From Phycisphaera sp. (GTDB lineage Bacteria > Planctomycetota > Phycisphaerae > Phycisphaerales > SM1A02): a DNA stretch of 64,000 bases. The stretch is taken from NCBI GenBank assembly GCA_016124975.1, contig WGMP01000028.1:1-64000 (forward strand), in the 5' to 3' direction. This document shows, in pieces, positions 4,975 through 22,541 of the stretch; the first letter of the stretch is position 1, and the number at the start of each line of letters is the position of its first letter. The position numbers and the translations under genes were made by a program. The notes under the pieces are model-generated. The model did no database searches and had not been told where the DNA came from. It saw only the letters and a program-made list of their open reading frames with translations.

Positions 4975-6555
4975 TCAAAACCGCGCAATCGAAAGCACCG
5001 TCACATCGTCCTCGAAGGTCGTTCCCGCGTGGGCGCGCAGCGACGCGACGATACGCGCCACGTCGTCCTTCGCGGAGGGCGACTCCGAAAGCGTCCGCGC
5101 GATGCGCTCGAGGCCGAACATCTCGCCGTTCGTGGCCCGCTGCTCGTGGACTCCGTCCGTCGCGACCACGATCCGCGCGCCGCGCGCAAGCGAGAGCGTG
5201 CTCGTCCCGTAGTCGGCATCGACGGTCACGCCCACGGGAAGCCCTCCGTCGGCCTCGATGCGCGTCGCGGTCCCGTTCTCGACGAGAAACGCGATGCCGT
5301 GTCCCGCGTCGCAGAGCGTCACGCCGCCGTCAGGTGAGAGGAGAAGCGCGAACATCGTCGCGAACTCGCTCGCCTCGCTGCGGGCGGCGAGAAACGCGCT
5401 GAGCGCTGCGACGCTCGCGTCAAGCGGCTCGACGCGCGTCGCCGCCGCATACATCCACGCCTGCGCCGACGCCATCAGCATCGCGGCCGCAGCGCCCTTT
5501 CCCGAGACATCGCCGACCCACGCGAGCACCGATCCGTCGGGCCGCGGCGCGATTCCCGCAAAATCGCCCGCGAGAAGCAGGCCCGGCAGCGAATGGAGGC
5601 TCCACGCCACCTCGCCGATCGCGCCGTCGTCCTCCGCGAGAAGCCTCCGCTGCACCTGCCTCGCGCGCTCCACGTCGAGCCGCAGCGCCTCGAGCCGCCG
5701 ACGCGCCACGCTCTCGATCACGAGCCCGCAAATGCGCGCCGCGGCGCCCACGACCTCCGCCATGCCGGCATCGACCGATGCGCGCGAGCCCGTGCCGTCA
5801 AGGTAGAGATAGAGCCCGTCGTCTCCCTCGACGACGACGCGCGCACAGAGGGCCTCGCGCACCCCGACCGCGAGGATGCTCTCCGCGCTCTGGATGCTTC
5901 CGTGCGACTGCGAGAGATGCGCCACGCGCATCGGATCGGCCGCTGCGGACAGCAGCGTACGGCTCACGGCCCGTGCGCCTGTGCCTGACTCCGCCAGGAT
6001 CTCCGCATCCGCGCGCGATTCATCGAAGCGCACGAGGGCCGCGCGCTCGAGCCCCGTGACCGCAAGAAGCTTCGCCAGAACGAGCCGACCCGCGGACTCC
6101 GCGCTGTCGTCGGCGGGAATGCCGCGCACCACCTCGATCAAGACGCGCAGCGCGTGCTCCGCGCCGCCGCGTGCGCCGACCACGATGGTGCGCACGGTGT
6201 CCGACGGCTCGCCCGTCGACTCGGTGCGCACGCGCGACGTCGCGTTGCGGATCCGCAGGACACGCGGCCCGAGCTGCACCCGGTCGCCCTCCTCGAGCGG
6301 CGCCGCGCGCCCGACGCCGATCAGGCGTCCGTTCACGCGCGTCCCGTGCCTGCTGCCGAGATCCTCCACCGAAGCTCCCGACGCATCGACCGAGATCGCG
6401 GCATGCTGTCGAGACACCGACGGGTCGTCCACCACGAGATCGCAGTCCGACCCGCGGCCGAGCACGACGCGCGCACCGAGCTCAAGCGACAGCGGCGGGA
6501 CCCGAGGGTCCCTCTCATCGACGATCTCGAGCCTGGCGGGGCCTCGTTCGGGCAC
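4975..6555 (-). CDS. FHA domain / PP2C-type (SpoIIE/RsbU-like) Ser/Thr phosphatase
   Basis: A 526-aa signalling protein. Residues about 10-100 form an FHA phosphothreonine-binding domain (LGRGSDCD, SRQHA, GSRHGTRVNG). A GAF-like middle region (about 130-290) follows, then a short helical stretch (DVERARQVQRRLL) typical before SpoIIE modules. The C-terminal PP2C_SpoIIE phosphatase has GDVSGKGAAAA, CDAGHG, VVATDGVHE and a final EDDVTVLSI that supplies metal-binding aspartates. Such proteins usually control anti-sigma/anti-anti-sigma partners; none lies next to it, so the target is unknown. The start is GTG 6555. A TAGAAT hexamer at 6570-6565 sits nine bases before it and overlaps the stop of the preceding gene, suggesting its own promoter and a leaderless mRNA. 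Confidence 0.87.
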   Translation of the reverse strand: MPERGPARLEIVDERDPRVPPLSLELGARVVLGRGSDCDLVVDDPSVSRQHAAISVDASGASVEDLGSRHGTRVNGRLIGVGRAAPLEEGDRVQLGPRVLRIRNATSRVRTESTGEPSDTVRTIVVGARGGAEHALRVLIEVVRGIPADDSAESAGRLVLAKLLAVTGLERAALVRFDESRADAEILAESGTGARAVSRTLLSAAADPMRVAHLSQSHGSIQSAESILAVGVREALCARVVVEGDDGLYLYLDGTGSRASVDAGMAEVVGAAARICGLVIESVARRRLEALRLDVERARQVQRRLLAEDDGAIGEVAWSLHSLPGLLLAGDFAGIAPRPDGSVLAWVGDVSGKGAAAAMLMASAQAWMYAAATRVEPLDASVAALSAFLAARSEASEFATMFALLLSPDGGVTLCDAGHGIAFLVENGTATRIEADGGLPVGVTVDADYGTSTLSLARGARIVVATDGVHEQRATNGEMFGLERIARTLSESPSAKDDVARIVASLRAHAGTTFEDDVTVLSIARF

Positions 6556-17763: not shown

Positions 17764-18573
17764 TCAGAGCCTCGTGCGGATCGCCCAGAGGTCGGGGAAG
17801 AGCGGCTGGAAGAGCGTGGCGCGCAGATAAGCGGCGCCAGGGCTCCCCCCTGTCCCCTGCTTGAAGCCAATCGTGCGCTCGACCATCTTCACATGACGGT
17901 AGCGCCATTCCTGCACGCCTTCGTCGAGGTCGACGAGGAGCTCGCACACCTGCCGTTCGGTCGGGTGTCCGCGGTAGATCGAGAGGAGCGTCTCCTGCAG
18001 CTCGGGCGACTCCGCGGGCGCGGCCGTCACATCGCGCGAGAGGAGCGCGTCGGGCACGGCGTGACCTCGATGCGCGAGGAAGCGAACGAAGGCATCGAAC
18101 AGCGTCGGCCGCGTCCATCGCGCCTCGATCGCCTTCCGCTCGGGGGAGCCCTCGGGATTGTGCGCGAGGACGCGCGGATTCTTGTTCCCGAGGAGGAACT
18201 CGAACTCGCGAAACTGCGCGCTCTGGAAGCCGCTCGAGTTCGCGAGGAAGCTGCGGAAGCTCAGGAACGAGACGGGCGTCATCGTCTCGAGCACATCGAT
18301 CTGCTGCACCATCGTCTTCAGGATGGTGAGCATGCGCTTGAGCGTGGCAGCCGCCTGCACCGCGTCGCCTTCCTCAAGCGCGCGCGCGAGGTAGTCGCCC
18401 TCGTGCAGCTGCTGCTTGAACCACAGCTCGTAGACCTGGTGGATGATGATGAAGAGCGTCTCGTCGTGCTCGGGGACACCCGTCCCCGGATGACGCGACC
18501 TCGGCTGCTGGAGCTCGAGGAGCTGCGGGATGCAGAGATAGCTGCCGTAGGTGAGCGATGAGGCGTCGTGCAC
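17764..18573 (-). CDS. kynA: Tryptophan 2,3-dioxygenase
   Basis: A 269-aa heme dioxygenase that opens the tryptophan indole ring to N-formylkynurenine. Family blocks are intact: SYLCIPQLL, the DETLFIIIHQVYELWFKQ helix (about 36-53), FREFEFLLG, and the C-terminal EWRYRHVKMVERTIG with the proximal-heme histidine, followed by GTGGSPGAAYL. Length is normal. Start GTG 18573 has TAGCCT six bases upstream (18585-18580), suggesting its own leaderless transcript. No other kynurenine-pathway gene is in the window, so it may feed NAD synthesis or catabolism encoded elsewhere. Confidence 0.92.
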   Translation of the reverse strand: MHDASSLTYGSYLCIPQLLELQQPRSRHPGTGVPEHDETLFIIIHQVYELWFKQQLHEGDYLARALEEGDAVQAAATLKRMLTILKTMVQQIDVLETMTPVSFLSFRSFLANSSGFQSAQFREFEFLLGNKNPRVLAHNPEGSPERKAIEARWTRPTLFDAFVRFLAHRGHAVPDALLSRDVTAAPAESPELQETLLSIYRGHPTERQVCELLVDLDEGVQEWRYRHVKMVERTIGFKQGTGGSPGAAYLRATLFQPLFPDLWAIRTRL

Positions 18574-18604: not shown

Positions 18605-21600
18605 TCAGCGGCCCGCAGTGCCCGAGGCCTTCAGCACCTGCAGTCGGCCGCTGCGGAGATCCCACACGACCTGCTGCGCGCGGATCGGCGTGGCCTGCCC
18701 CTTCACGGCGATCTCGACCGAGCCGCCCTCAGCCGCCGTGAGCGTGGCGATGCCTGTGGTGACGGAATAGTCGAAGCTTCCGCAGCGGATGTCCTGCTCG
18801 GGCGTGCGCACGAAGACGCCGCCCGTGGCCATCACGCCGAGAAGCTCCGCGGGGCCGCCGAGGTCTGCGCCCGCCGCGTCGCGGGCGTCTGGCTTCGCGC
18901 CCTCGGCGACCGGGCGCCGCACGGTCGCCTCGAGCGTGTCGCAGGTCATGGCGAGCGTGTCGTCCGGTCGAAGGCCCGCGTGCAGGAGCTCGACGCCCGA
19001 CTCCATTCGGATCGTGAAGACATCGTCGTAGGCGCGCTTCAGCTCCATGCGGCGCTTCCAGCGGAAGCGCGTGGTGCCGTCGCCGCCGAGGTTGATCGCG
19101 CCCGGGAGCGGCGACGACGCGCCGCGCGCCCCATCGGCTGGCGCGGCGGCCGCTTTCGGCGGCAGGTTCACCAGGATGCCGCCATCGCCGACGACCAAGC
19201 CTTCGCGCGAGCGCATGTCGTACTCGATGTGCTCGCCCGTGACGCGGAAGACGCGCGGGTCGCCCTTGCGCTCCTCGGTCTCCCAGGCCCTGCTCTCGAC
19301 GCGGGCGTCGCCCTTGGCGATGAACTGCTCGAGCGAGCGCCGCGAGCTGTCGGCCACCGCGTCAGATCCGCTTGCGCGCGATCGATCGGCGGGGTCCGCG
19401 CCGATCTCGAGGAGCAGCGCCCGCGCGTCGACGGCATCGCTCGTCGCCCCGTCGGGCCGGCTGCGCACGCGCACATCGCCGCGGAGATCAAGCGTGCTGC
19501 GCGTCTCGGAAAGCTCGGTGAAGTCGAGGTTCTCGCTCCAGGTCGCCTCGAGCGTCGCGGCGCCAGTCGGCTCGGGCCGCTCGACCTTGCCCTCGCGCTG
19601 CGCAAGCGGCTCGCGGAAGGCGCGGAAGCGGCCCGGCCCCTCGCTGCGTGCGCTGCGCGTCGCGTCATCAAAGCGGAGGTCGCGGAGATTGTCCGCCACG
19701 ATGTTCGAGCGGACGATCGCCACATTGTCGCCCGTGAGGCGGAGCGAGCGGCGTGCGGCGTCTCCCTTCAGTTCCTGCGCGAAGACGCGGGCGCCCTCGC
19801 GAAGAAGGACCTGCACGCCGCCCTTCGCCTCGACGGCGTCGATGTCGACTTCGCCGAGAGGGTCGGTTGCCGCAGCCTCGCCGCGGTCGGGCTCCCCCGC
19901 CGGCGACGCAGCTGCGCGCGGCCGGAAGTCGACGACGAGGTCTTCCGTCCAGATCGTCTGCCTGTCGTCGCGCGCCTCGACCGCCGAACGCGCGACAAGC
20001 CTGCGGGGCATCGCGTCGCCGCCGAGCGACTCCGCGAGGAAGAGCTCGATGCGGCCAGCGCGCATCGCGCCCGCTCCGCCGAGCCGGCGTACCTCGACCA
20101 CGCCGGGCGCGCCGCCGCCGTCGGCGATGATCGCGTCGATTCGCTCGCCGCCGCTCGGCGAGAAGGCAACCTCGAGCGTGGCTGCGTCGAGCTCGAACTG
20201 CCGGCCAAAGACCTCGACGCCGCCGCCGAAGCGCGCAAGCGAGAGCGTGGCGTCCTCGCCGCCGCCATCGAAGCGAAGATCGACGCCGCCCTTCCAGAGG
20301 ATCTCGAGTTCCTGCGCCTTCGGGTCGAACTCGAAGTCGCGCGGGTCCGCCACCCGTCGCGCGGGCGGATCCTGTCGCACCGCGAGCACCGCATGCGCGG
20401 GATCCGCGGAGACGAGCATGCGGGTCGCGTCGGGAATGAGCGCGGGCGCGACCTCGAGGAAGCCGACCGCGCGCGCAGACCCGCGCGAGAGCGCGAGCCG
20501 GCCGCCGCCGTCGAGCCTGCCCTCGCCGTCGCGCAGGGACGCGGTGAAGCGCGTCCCCTCGAGCTGCATGCGGCGGTTGGTGACGGTGAGCGGAACCCCC
20601 GCGCGGCCCTCCGCCTCGATGCGCTCCTCGCGCACGCCGTAGCGGAGACGCGAGCACACGATGCGCGAGCGCGAGCGCCCGTCGACGACCTCGACGCGCG
20701 GGCCGAGGACATCGAAGCGGATCTCATCGGGGTCGGACAGCTGGTCCGCGGGATCGACCGCAGGAAGCATGACGAGTCGGCCGCCGAAGGTGACGGTGAC
20801 GCCATCGGGCTCGGTCGCGGAACGGGCCTCTGGCACGGCGCCCGCCTGCGCGAAGACAAGCGGAAGAACGGCGAGCGCGGCCTGTGCGCGCGGGAACAGC
20901 GAGGCGTGCATCGGGTGGTGCGTCCCCTGGGGTGGGCGGGGAAGGAAGGCGAGGTCGTCGAGGCTGCGCGACTCAAGGCTGAACACGGCGACGAGTTCCT
21001 CGCCCTTGATCGTGGTGCGCACGCCGTCCTTCACGCGCACGACCTCGACGCCGCCGAGCATGACGAGGCGGTAGAACGGCGCGCGGGTCGCTGGCTGCGA
21101 AGGCGCAGGCGGCGTGGATGGCGCTGCGGGTTGCGCTGCGGGTTGCGCTGGGGCCTGCGCGGGCGGCTGCGTCGAAGTCGTCTCGCCTCCACGCGCCGCA
21201 GCGCGCGCGGCGTCCGCACGGGCCACGGCGCGCGCGGCGGTATCGATGCGGATCGGCTCGAGCGCGCGCTCGACCACGAGGCGCTCGACGCCGTCGCCGT
21301 CGCCGTCGAGGACAAGCGAAAGCCCCTCCCCCGCGAAGCTGCCGGCCTCGGTCGCGACGCGCACGGCCTTGTCGCAGCGGACCTCGCCGAGCACGCCATC
21401 GAACTGCGCAGACTCCGCAGTCACCACCACGGCGGGCGCATCACGGTCGATGTCGACCGCGCGTCCCGACCCGCGCTCGGGCCTGAAGAGCCGCACGACG
21501 ACATCGTCTTCGAGCGTGCCCGACTCGAGCGCGCGGCGCGGCACATACGCCACGCCCTTCCGCGACGCGAGCGAGAGCACGCGACCGTCCTTCATGTAGA

Positions 21601-21967
21601 TCACAGCGCGCGGCTCGACCATCGCGACCTGGCTTCCCGGGAGCGGATCGAGCTTCGTGGCGCTGTACTGCTGCGCGAGGCGCCCCTCCTCGTCGGCGAC
21701 CTGCACCCATGCACCGCTCGCAAGCGACACCGAGGTCTGGTCGGGCGTCGCGCCCGAGGCGCGCGCGAGCTCCTCGGCGCTGGCGATGCGCGGTGGAAGG
21801 AGGTCCTCGACCGAGTCGAGCCTGCTCTCGCGCGCGGTGCGCGGCGTGCCGCGGTCGACATTGAGGGCGGCGAGGATGACAAGCACCGCGAACGCGGCCG
21901 CGGGAAGCGCGAAGAGCAATCCGCGCCGCTCGCGGAGCGTGCGCAATGCGCGATCGATGCGGCTCAT
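18605..21967 (-). CDS. Giant LptC/LptA-like LPS-transport periplasmic protein
   Basis: A 1120-aa protein with one N-terminal membrane helix (about residues 18-36) and an otherwise periplasmic body. Residues about 80-230 match LptC: GRLAQQYSATKLDPLP, VAMVEPRAVIYMKDG, VVVTAESAQFDG. The rest repeats OstA/LptA-like beta-jellyroll strands (RLVMLGGVEVVRVKDG, VFTIRMESGVELLH, IRAQQVVWDLRSGRLQVL near the C-terminus) joined by Ala/Pro linkers (about 255-295). ATG 21967 overlaps the kdsC stop (ATGA), recalling the kdsC-lptC order of proteobacteria. At roughly three times LptC plus LptA, it may form much of the bridge by itself. LptB is at 37500-38234; LptD and LptF/G are not here. Confidence 0.75.
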   Translation of the reverse strand: MSRIDRALRTLRERRGLLFALPAAAFAVLVILAALNVDRGTPRTARESRLDSVEDLLPPRIASAEELARASGATPDQTSVSLASGAWVQVADEEGRLAQQYSATKLDPLPGSQVAMVEPRAVIYMKDGRVLSLASRKGVAYVPRRALESGTLEDDVVVRLFRPERGSGRAVDIDRDAPAVVVTAESAQFDGVLGEVRCDKAVRVATEAGSFAGEGLSLVLDGDGDGVERLVVERALEPIRIDTAARAVARADAARAAARGGETTSTQPPAQAPAQPAAQPAAPSTPPAPSQPATRAPFYRLVMLGGVEVVRVKDGVRTTIKGEELVAVFSLESRSLDDLAFLPRPPQGTHHPMHASLFPRAQAALAVLPLVFAQAGAVPEARSATEPDGVTVTFGGRLVMLPAVDPADQLSDPDEIRFDVLGPRVEVVDGRSRSRIVCSRLRYGVREERIEAEGRAGVPLTVTNRRMQLEGTRFTASLRDGEGRLDGGGRLALSRGSARAVGFLEVAPALIPDATRMLVSADPAHAVLAVRQDPPARRVADPRDFEFDPKAQELEILWKGGVDLRFDGGGEDATLSLARFGGGVEVFGRQFELDAATLEVAFSPSGGERIDAIIADGGGAPGVVEVRRLGGAGAMRAGRIELFLAESLGGDAMPRRLVARSAVEARDDRQTIWTEDLVVDFRPRAAASPAGEPDRGEAAATDPLGEVDIDAVEAKGGVQVLLREGARVFAQELKGDAARRSLRLTGDNVAIVRSNIVADNLRDLRFDDATRSARSEGPGRFRAFREPLAQREGKVERPEPTGAATLEATWSENLDFTELSETRSTLDLRGDVRVRSRPDGATSDAVDARALLLEIGADPADRSRASGSDAVADSSRRSLEQFIAKGDARVESRAWETEERKGDPRVFRVTGEHIEYDMRSREGLVVGDGGILVNLPPKAAAAPADGARGASSPLPGAINLGGDGTTRFRWKRRMELKRAYDDVFTIRMESGVELLHAGLRPDDTLAMTCDTLEATVRRPVAEGAKPDARDAAGADLGGPAELLGVMATGGVFVRTPEQDIRCGSFDYSVTTGIATLTAAEGGSVEIAVKGQATPIRAQQVVWDLRSGRLQVLKASGTAGR

Positions 21968-22512
21968 GGGCGTGCCCCCGCGCGGGCGTCGTCGCCCGCG
22001 AACTCTGGGTCAAAGGTGCGCACGGCCTCGGCCCAGCGCCCCTGCCCCTTCAGAATGTGCTCGATCGCCTCGCGCACGGCGCCCGACCCGCCGGGACGCG
22101 CCGTGACGAACCGCGCCACATCGAGTACCTCCTGCGCCGCGTCGCGGACGGCGATGGGAAGCCCCGCGCGGCGGAGGATCGGAAGATCGGGAAGGTCGTC
22201 GCCGATCATCGCCACCTCGGAGGCGTCAACCGAAAGCTCCGCGAGAAGCGCGGTGAACGCGTCGCCCTTTGCCTTCGAGCCCGACACGACATGGCGCACG
22301 CCGAGTTCGCGCAGGCGGTGCCTCAGCGCCATGCCGTTTCGGCCGGTGATGACGGCCGTGCCGTAGCCAAGCCGCGACCACATGCGCAGCGCAGCGCCGT
22401 CGCGGACATGGAACCGCTTGGTCTCGTGGCCCGCATCGTCGATGGCGATCCCGCCATCGGTGAGGACGCCATCGACATCGAGGAAGAGGAAGCGGATCCG
22501 TTCGACCGACAC
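21964..22512 (-). CDS. kdsC: 3-deoxy-D-manno-octulosonate 8-phosphate phosphatase (KdsC, HAD family)
   Basis: A 182-aa C0-type HAD phosphatase that makes Kdo for LPS. The motif I aspartates are in FLDVDGVLTDGG (about residue 10), with the KRFHVRDGAALRMW block, VITGRNG (motif II) and GDDLPDLPIL (motif IV). Start GTG 22512 has TACACT six bases upstream (22524-22519), a likely leaderless promoter. It is coupled by ATGA to the LptC/A-like gene. A related nucleotide-sugar HAD enzyme is the alternative, but the LPS context supports KdsC. Confidence 0.88.
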   Translation of the reverse strand: MSVERIRFLFLDVDGVLTDGGIAIDDAGHETKRFHVRDGAALRMWSRLGYGTAVITGRNGMALRHRLRELGVRHVVSGSKAKGDAFTALLAELSVDASEVAMIGDDLPDLPILRRAGLPIAVRDAAQEVLDVARFVTARPGGSGAVREAIEHILKGQGRWAEAVRTFDPEFAGDDARAGARP

Positions 22513-22541
22513 GGCGTGAGTGTACCCGTTGGCGGCCGCGC

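Follow-up and report, generated by a model that had tools for sequence, protein, structure and literature searches.

Can one polypeptide take the place of both LptC and LptA in the transport of lipopolysaccharide (LPS) across the periplasm? The question is raised by a gene found in the first 64,000 nucleotides of contig WGMP01000028.1 of Phycisphaera sp. (the window), which lies on the minus strand at positions 18605-21967 and consists of a single open reading frame (ORF) of 1120 amino acids with an ATG start. All features described below are on the same strand. A first-pass annotation of the window had described the product as one protein in which an LptC is followed by several LptA-like segments, encoded downstream of kdsC. 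The position, strand and length given there were borne out, and the frame is not due to chance, because seven relatives align with the protein and the ratio of nonsynonymous to synonymous substitution rates (dN/dS) is low in its folded parts. The interpretation as a membrane-anchored, LptC-like domain followed by LptA-like jellyroll repeats was also supported: the structure prediction yielded successive jellyrolls along the chain, and no separate LptA gene came to light in a family search of low sensitivity. In our view the product is probably a single-chain LptC-(LptA)n bridge for LPS, with a module number that varies among the relatives of the gene.

The structure was predicted for the full-length protein, from 8 sequences (mean predicted local distance difference test score, pLDDT, 66.7), and in a second, separate run for residues 70-495 (mean pLDDT 68.5). 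The full-length model begins with a helix and consists of nearly nothing but strands thereafter. Hydropathy (2.75 at residues 17-33) and the model (helix at 20-34) place a transmembrane helix at about residues 17-34 (21866-21919), and the uncut members from the same order have a similar hydrophobic segment near the N-terminus. The predicted jellyroll that follows, residues 75-248 (21224-21745), has LptC of the LptB2FGC complex as its top structural match (6mit_C, Z 16.0, root mean square deviation, rmsd, 3.5 Å over 148 residues), LptA coming below it with Z 12.8; Foldseek also places LptC first for the 70-495 model. The Pfam LptC family (PF06835) matches in the same place, at residues 83-163, with a score just below its cut-off (18 bits versus 21). 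In other words, the protein begins, by prediction, with a single N-terminal helix and an LptC-type periplasmic jellyroll, and the earlier remark that its first 230 residues look like LptC agrees with the best structural match.

An Ala/Pro-rich variable linker of low pLDDT (residues 249-295, 21083-21223) leads to the first LptA-like module, residues 296-495 (20483-21082). In the 70-495 model this module matches LptA 2r1a_C with Z 13.0 and an rmsd of 1.8 Å over 110 residues, and the first unrelated protein appears at Z 9.9. Another variable linker, residues 496-545 (20333-20482, pLDDT <50), is followed by three LptA-like repeat regions, i.e. residues 546-790 (19598-20332), 800-935 (19163-19570) and 960-1118 at the C-terminal end (18614-19090). 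LptA 8gak_A is matched at 548-667 with Z 10.1. The other two regions fall for the most part in the stretch 841-1109 of the full model, whose best match is the N-terminal domain of LptD (Z 14.5; LptC, Z 11.2), and residues 904-1090 match LptA 2r1a_C (Z 12.7); the first unrelated proteins for this C-terminal part are at Z 7.8.

The repeats were also compared as sequence profiles with hhalign. The last three regions are mutually homologous at 95-98% probability (about 95% for the first against the next two, 97.6% for the second against the last), and residues 385-495 join them at 72-93%. The LptC-like part, whose cut at residues 80-345 takes in the opening strands of the first LptA-like module, reaches only 2-19% against the other modules. 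If LptA is taken to have 16 strands, the 48 strands predicted after residue 295 in the full model would correspond to about three LptA equivalents. The chain is predicted to have the LptA-type jellyroll fold, with LptC-, LptA- and LptD-N-type matches following each other, and the groove would presumably continue across the low-confidence linkers. The description of this part as repeated OstA/LptA-type strands stands on the fold, on the internal profile homology and on the PF03968 matches of the relatives, and it did not hold for the Pfam scan of the 1120-residue sequence alone.

Six of the seven relatives are 54-72% identical to the protein and the seventh is 36% identical; two are incomplete at a contig end. 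A profile built from the protein and these relatives matched the gene in all but one of 41 genomes (in 40, own genome included), the exception being a genome that is 82% complete. The fusion is conserved and widespread, i.e. it is not peculiar to the genome in which it was noticed. The frame is uninterrupted in 28 of the 30 loci fetched. One of the other two is cut by a contig end, and the other (locus L042 of genome G017) is an otherwise intact relative with an in-frame TAG at 6064-6066, about residue 95. The gene was also seen at 59-63% identity in L003 and L004, two loci whose public records bear the titles 'Candidatus Kuenenia stuttgartiensis' and 'Limnohabitans', and at least in the case of the latter the assembly appears to be mislabelled or mixed.

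The family relationship becomes clearer at the level of the order, where 24 members were aligned (alignment A2; excluded were L042 with its TAG, L055 as a near-copy of L050/L059, L065 at a contig end, and L066-L070, which are of the genus of the rows in alignment A1). PF03968 (LptA / LptD N-terminal) matches 14 of the 24 members and LptC matches 11 at E≤0.1, with best values of 9.6e-10 and 2.4e-7, respectively. When the profile of the 24 members was compared with solved structures, 13 of the 14 chains matched were LptD or LptA (E 0.02-0.31); each of these matches is weak alone, and jointly they point in one direction. The dN/dS values follow the predicted domains. Against the relative P0003 (67% identical) the LptC-like part has a value of 0.12 and the later modules have 0.15-0.18, compared with 0.42-0.56 in the linker (0.42 for residues 246-295) and in a loop described below. 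All values are higher against P0009 and P0006, the folded parts having 0.20-0.66; the P0006 loop gave no value for the synonymous rate.

The number of modules differs between members from related genera. Two family-level members have frames of 885 and 910 amino acids (L041, 5948-8605, and L045, 6356-9088) and have lost about 190 residues, corresponding to profile positions 433/440 to 630/624. A third member of 1359 amino acids (L048, 5344-9423) matches the very same profile stretch twice and shows an inserted block in the alignment, i.e. it has gained a module. Natural frames of 885, 1120 and 1359 amino acids within one order would make the module number comparable with the width of the periplasm.

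The genomic neighbourhood suggests what is carried. The gene upstream (21964-22524, its start being approximate) was identified as kdsC, encoding 3-deoxy-manno-octulosonate (Kdo) 8-phosphate phosphatase, by a TIGR01670 score of 151.1 bits (cut-off 106.95), other NCBIfam families of KdsC-like phosphatases remaining below their own cut-offs. Its stop codon overlaps the start of the 1120-residue gene by 4 bases (ATGA, 21964-21967), so that the placement downstream of kdsC was confirmed, and in 26 of the 30 loci a KdsC-like frame of the same strand precedes the gene at a distance of up to about 120 bases. The overlap with a gene for a Kdo enzyme of LPS, together with this repeated neighbourhood, argues for LPS and against a jellyroll bridge that serves some other amphiphile. 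The latter reading would draw on the fact that jellyrolls of this kind bind acyl chains, and on the other uses that KdsC-like phosphatases also have; moreover, kdsC is the one LPS gene considered here, to the exclusion of the lipid A genes. An Lpt apparatus for a non-LPS substrate has in fact been proposed for Treponema pallidum (PMC8407342). On balance we regard a cargo other than LPS as quite improbable. At the opposite end, the 3' end of the gene is adjoined by a tryptophan 2,3-dioxygenase gene (17764-18573), which was also found beside it in the 5 loci of the same genus that were examined.

How far does this arrangement extend in the Planctomycetota? A profile of the LptC-like domain found matches in 30 of 195 planctomycete genomes, i.e. 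in 20 of this order (own genome included), 9 more of this class and 1 outside the class. The matched frames are 866-1445 amino acids long except for two, one of 408 amino acids with a frame change in a repeat, and one of 569 amino acids where the stored stretch ends. The other 165 genomes are not read as being without the protein, because a search of the kdsC neighbourhood found long candidates beyond the reach of the LptC profile. For this search kdsC served as a landmark and was present in 49 of 59 genomes; 39 loci were fetched, 38 of them outside the class (4 of the 49 genomes were already covered, and 6 were left out, as were the second kdsC-like matches of G058 and G067). A simple greedy rule then picked the next frame on the same strand, which was counted if it had at least 550 amino acids and, as judged from the hydropathy values, a hydrophobic segment of at least 1.7 near the N-terminus. 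Such a long, helix-bearing frame follows kdsC in 24 of the 39 loci (23 of the 38 outside the class); note that loci cut by contig ends (e.g. L123, L134, L137, L148) can only lower these counts. The rule found no such frame in the remaining 15 loci, therefore the linkage to kdsC is not universal.

The first frame after kdsC is matched by the order-level profile in 12 of the 39 loci at E≤0.001, the E-values being those for this small set. In a Pfam scan of 24 frames after kdsC, which form a chosen and overlapping set, 16 are over the LptC or LptD_N cut-off, and a 25th frame (L115) is over both. The LptC scores over the cut-off beside kdsC in other planctomycetes include 64.8 bits (L114), 61.5 bits (L119) and 55.0 bits (L123). 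Two proteins from outside the class carry both domains on one chain. One has 660 amino acids (gap to kdsC 486 bases; LptC 64.8 and LptD_N 82.3 bits) and the other 654 amino acids (gap 93 bases; LptC 59.3 and LptD_N 83 bits), and judged by these family scores they are clear-cut, textbook fusions. Furthermore, 5 of the 6 second frames after kdsC that were scanned are LptD over the cut-off, in loci of other classes. The sixth (L114, 3600-5489), located after the 660-residue fusion, has a glycerophosphodiester phosphodiesterase domain and HEAT repeats (GDPD-HEAT). A further frame of 1227 amino acids lies beside a kdsC-like frame in a genome outside the class (G140; L112 / L153) and has an N-terminal hydrophobic segment and a weak match to the LptC profile (E 2.1e-4). 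L153 was added for this match and is in none of the counts, as the rule picked the wrong frame there.

Several results weigh against a single-chain bridge. By the curated cut-offs the 1120-residue protein is a member of neither the LptC nor the LptA family: its Pfam LptC score falls short, as mentioned, the NCBIfam LptC model TIGR04409 gives 19 bits versus a cut-off of 38, and in the Pfam scan there is no PF03968 match at E≤1. Taken by itself, the sequence of the protein is weak evidence, and the case is carried by the relatives and the predicted fold. The full-length model contains 333 residues with pLDDT <50, including 36-117 (which have better confidence in the 70-495 model), 243-294, 337-385 and 496-545, so that the continuity of the groove is presumed. 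Among the 24 frames after kdsC that were scanned with Pfam, 4 have only sub-threshold Lpt matches and 4 have none. The LptD candidate of the own genome, an ORF of 965 amino acids on contig C27, is below the cut-off of 22.4 (21.9 bits in the genome search, 19.4 as a protein), and no LptF/LptG was matched in the own assembly with PF03739 or with an LptG query from the same genus. The last such point is a signal-peptide-like stretch in the interior of the protein.

Further comparisons of single sequences gave little. A phmmer search of the protein against solved structures returned two irrelevant matches only (E 0.39 and 1.1), and hhalign comparisons of individual E. coli sequences with the modules were of no use (best probability 11.6%). 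A search of the own genome for the LptC family missed the 1120-residue protein and yielded only a weak match elsewhere (E 0.7, another contig), therefore such whole-genome searches are less sensitive than the scan of the protein.

The signal-peptide-like stretch is weakly hydrophobic, at about residues 358-379, and belongs to a disordered loop in the first LptA-like module (residues 335-387, 20807-20965). It gives rise to the main rival explanation, in which the gene makes a precursor to be cut, or two products. Here, the stretch would stem from a former LptA signal peptide and be cleaved, or an internal Met just before it would serve as a start, and the LptC-like anchor would work separately from a free LptA-like protein. 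All 8 close members have the stretch in this position, where it is one of their five most hydrophobic, and an ATG shortly precedes it in 12 of the 14 segments caught by a sequence pattern (none in L005 and L026), some with a Shine-Dalgarno-like triplet or better before it. Nevertheless, the strands before the loop (298-330) and after it (389-494) give the LptA match jointly. The rival loses weight as the loop falls within one module and does not divide one module from the next. An internal signal peptide as the LptC/LptA border was dropped and is kept as a rival only, since in the 70-495 model the loop belongs to the first LptA-like module. The frame is open through the loop in the 28 loci counted above, and most members from other genera show the stretch weakly or not at all. 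In addition, a hydrophobic stretch that comes after a domain already in the periplasm has the wrong direction for a signal peptide, and the stretch in the loop follows such a domain. Cleavage or internal initiation at this loop is in our view unlikely. A natural split into two genes was also considered for G197, where the 408-residue frame is accompanied by another (L086). No signal-peptide start is seen at the frame change, which we judge to be a slip or an assembly error. The change lies at about 1290-1404 within a GTGGCGTCTGGGGCC-type 15-base tandem repeat in the linker.

Another possibility is that the protein combines an LptC-type anchor with a long scaffold, and that the path is completed only by a separate LptA that has escaped recognition. 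A search with PF03968 covered 25 of the 41 genomes (own genome included, G035 left out) and found matches in 5 of them at E≤0.1. Three are in the fused frame, and two fused frames are over the PF03968 cut-off with neighbours in the frame; the other two matches are in LptD-scoring proteins (22.4 bits, exactly at the cut-off of 22.4, and 37.2 bits). In the own genome there was no match at E≤1, and no short separate frame was matched in any of the 25 genomes, several of them 98-100% complete, in a search of low sensitivity, since the fused protein, too, goes unmatched in most of them. A divergent small LptA could escape in the same way, and the own genome (G000) is a draft assembly (3.61 Mb, 59 contigs, 97.6% complete). 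Against an additional LptA stands, apart from the lack of short matches, the C-terminal end of the protein, which itself best matches the LptD N-terminal domain and LptA. The family searches are thus suggestive of the group having no separate LptA and do not prove it, and we find the scaffold explanation very hard to believe.

The permeases LptF/LptG were searched for in 13 genomes and are over the cut-off in all 12 relatives, including one of the same genus. Their absence from the own assembly, despite its 97.6% completeness, may be a gap or a real loss. A contig end was considered as the cause by comparing the window with the lptFG stretches of G013, from the same genus; the shared gene order breaks just past the tryptophan dioxygenase gene, and the comparison speaks neither for nor against this cause. 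In three relatives the first gene of the LptF/LptG pair encodes 557-636 amino acids and its partner 364-376 (L154, 2140-4047; L155, 1033-2790; L156, 1011-2684), and in several genomes the family match comes in two halves with extra residues in between. Judging from these observations, the periplasmic part of the transporter seems to be enlarged too. No frame with the strict LptB-type motif pair was found in the 30 stretches (9.6-18 kb) around the relatives, a search that did not extend to the genome itself.

We propose the following mechanism. The N-terminal helix would anchor the chain in the inner membrane, and the first jellyroll, in place of LptC, would take LPS from the LptB2FG transporter. 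The following LptA-like jellyrolls would prolong a single hydrophobic groove in the direction of the outer membrane and its LptD, the chain remaining in one piece and presumably docking on LptF/LptG at one end and on LptD at the other. One chain would thereby replace the separate lptC and lptA genes, and the length of the bridge would be set by the number of encoded modules. A one-chain bridge fixes both the module number and the stoichiometry, and it is reasonable to expect that the stoichiometry of LPS transport is changed, as the first-pass annotation had anticipated. The number of LptA molecules per bridge is stated as unknown in a 2023 review (PMC10094684).

The fused gene is a likely home of LptC and LptA in planctomycetes. 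One survey reports LptD and BamA from planctomycetes (PMC3422733), and the words LptA and LptC occur zero times in its main text; another describes the planctomycete Lpt set as largely reduced (PMC8871954). It is tempting to suggest that in the Planctomycetota as a phylum the LPS bridge is one covalent polypeptide whose jellyroll number is a genetic ruler of the periplasm, that lineages adjust it by gaining or losing modules rather than by regulation of the copy number of LptA, and that the 'largely reduced' set of the surveys is due to divergence; we hold this wider view only tentatively, and it may well prove too broad. We found no report of an LptC-LptA fusion in the literature covered, which did not include preprints, and the combination of domains may be listed in protein databases already.

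A single chain that crosses the periplasm, a task for which several proteins are employed in other systems, has likewise been proposed for the elongated MlaD of Veillonella parvula (PMC10665443) and for LetB (PMC8727689). These are mammalian cell entry (MCE) proteins for phospholipids, and that MlaD has a C-terminal outer-membrane barrel; no sequence relation is claimed. Lpt has itself been described as unlike LetB, i.e. as a bridge of small separate proteins (PMC8727689). In diderm Firmicutes (PMC5007114), two OstA-domain proteins of about 200 amino acids, LptA and LptC, are likewise divergent OstA-type proteins beside LPS genes, but they are separate and small. The N-terminal jellyroll of LptD is the best structural match of residues 841-1109, whereas here no beta-barrel is predicted and the LptD candidate is a separate gene. 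A further comparison is with Escherichia coli, where LptC and LptA also combine one N-terminal helix with jellyroll folds. There they are two proteins, LptA being small and soluble and having a signal peptide of its own that is cleaved off; here one chain of 1120 residues with an N-terminal helix would hold several LptA-like modules in cis, with a sequence almost beyond recognition by Pfam. The E. coli genes are arranged as kdsD-kdsC-lptC-lptA-lptB, so that the order kdsC, LptC, LptA is common to both, and kdsC and lptC overlap by 4 bases, as do kdsC and the 1120-residue gene. By genome coordinates lptC and lptA of E. coli overlap by 32 bases. With neighbours overlapping in this manner, the fusion of lptC and lptA may have been an easy step.

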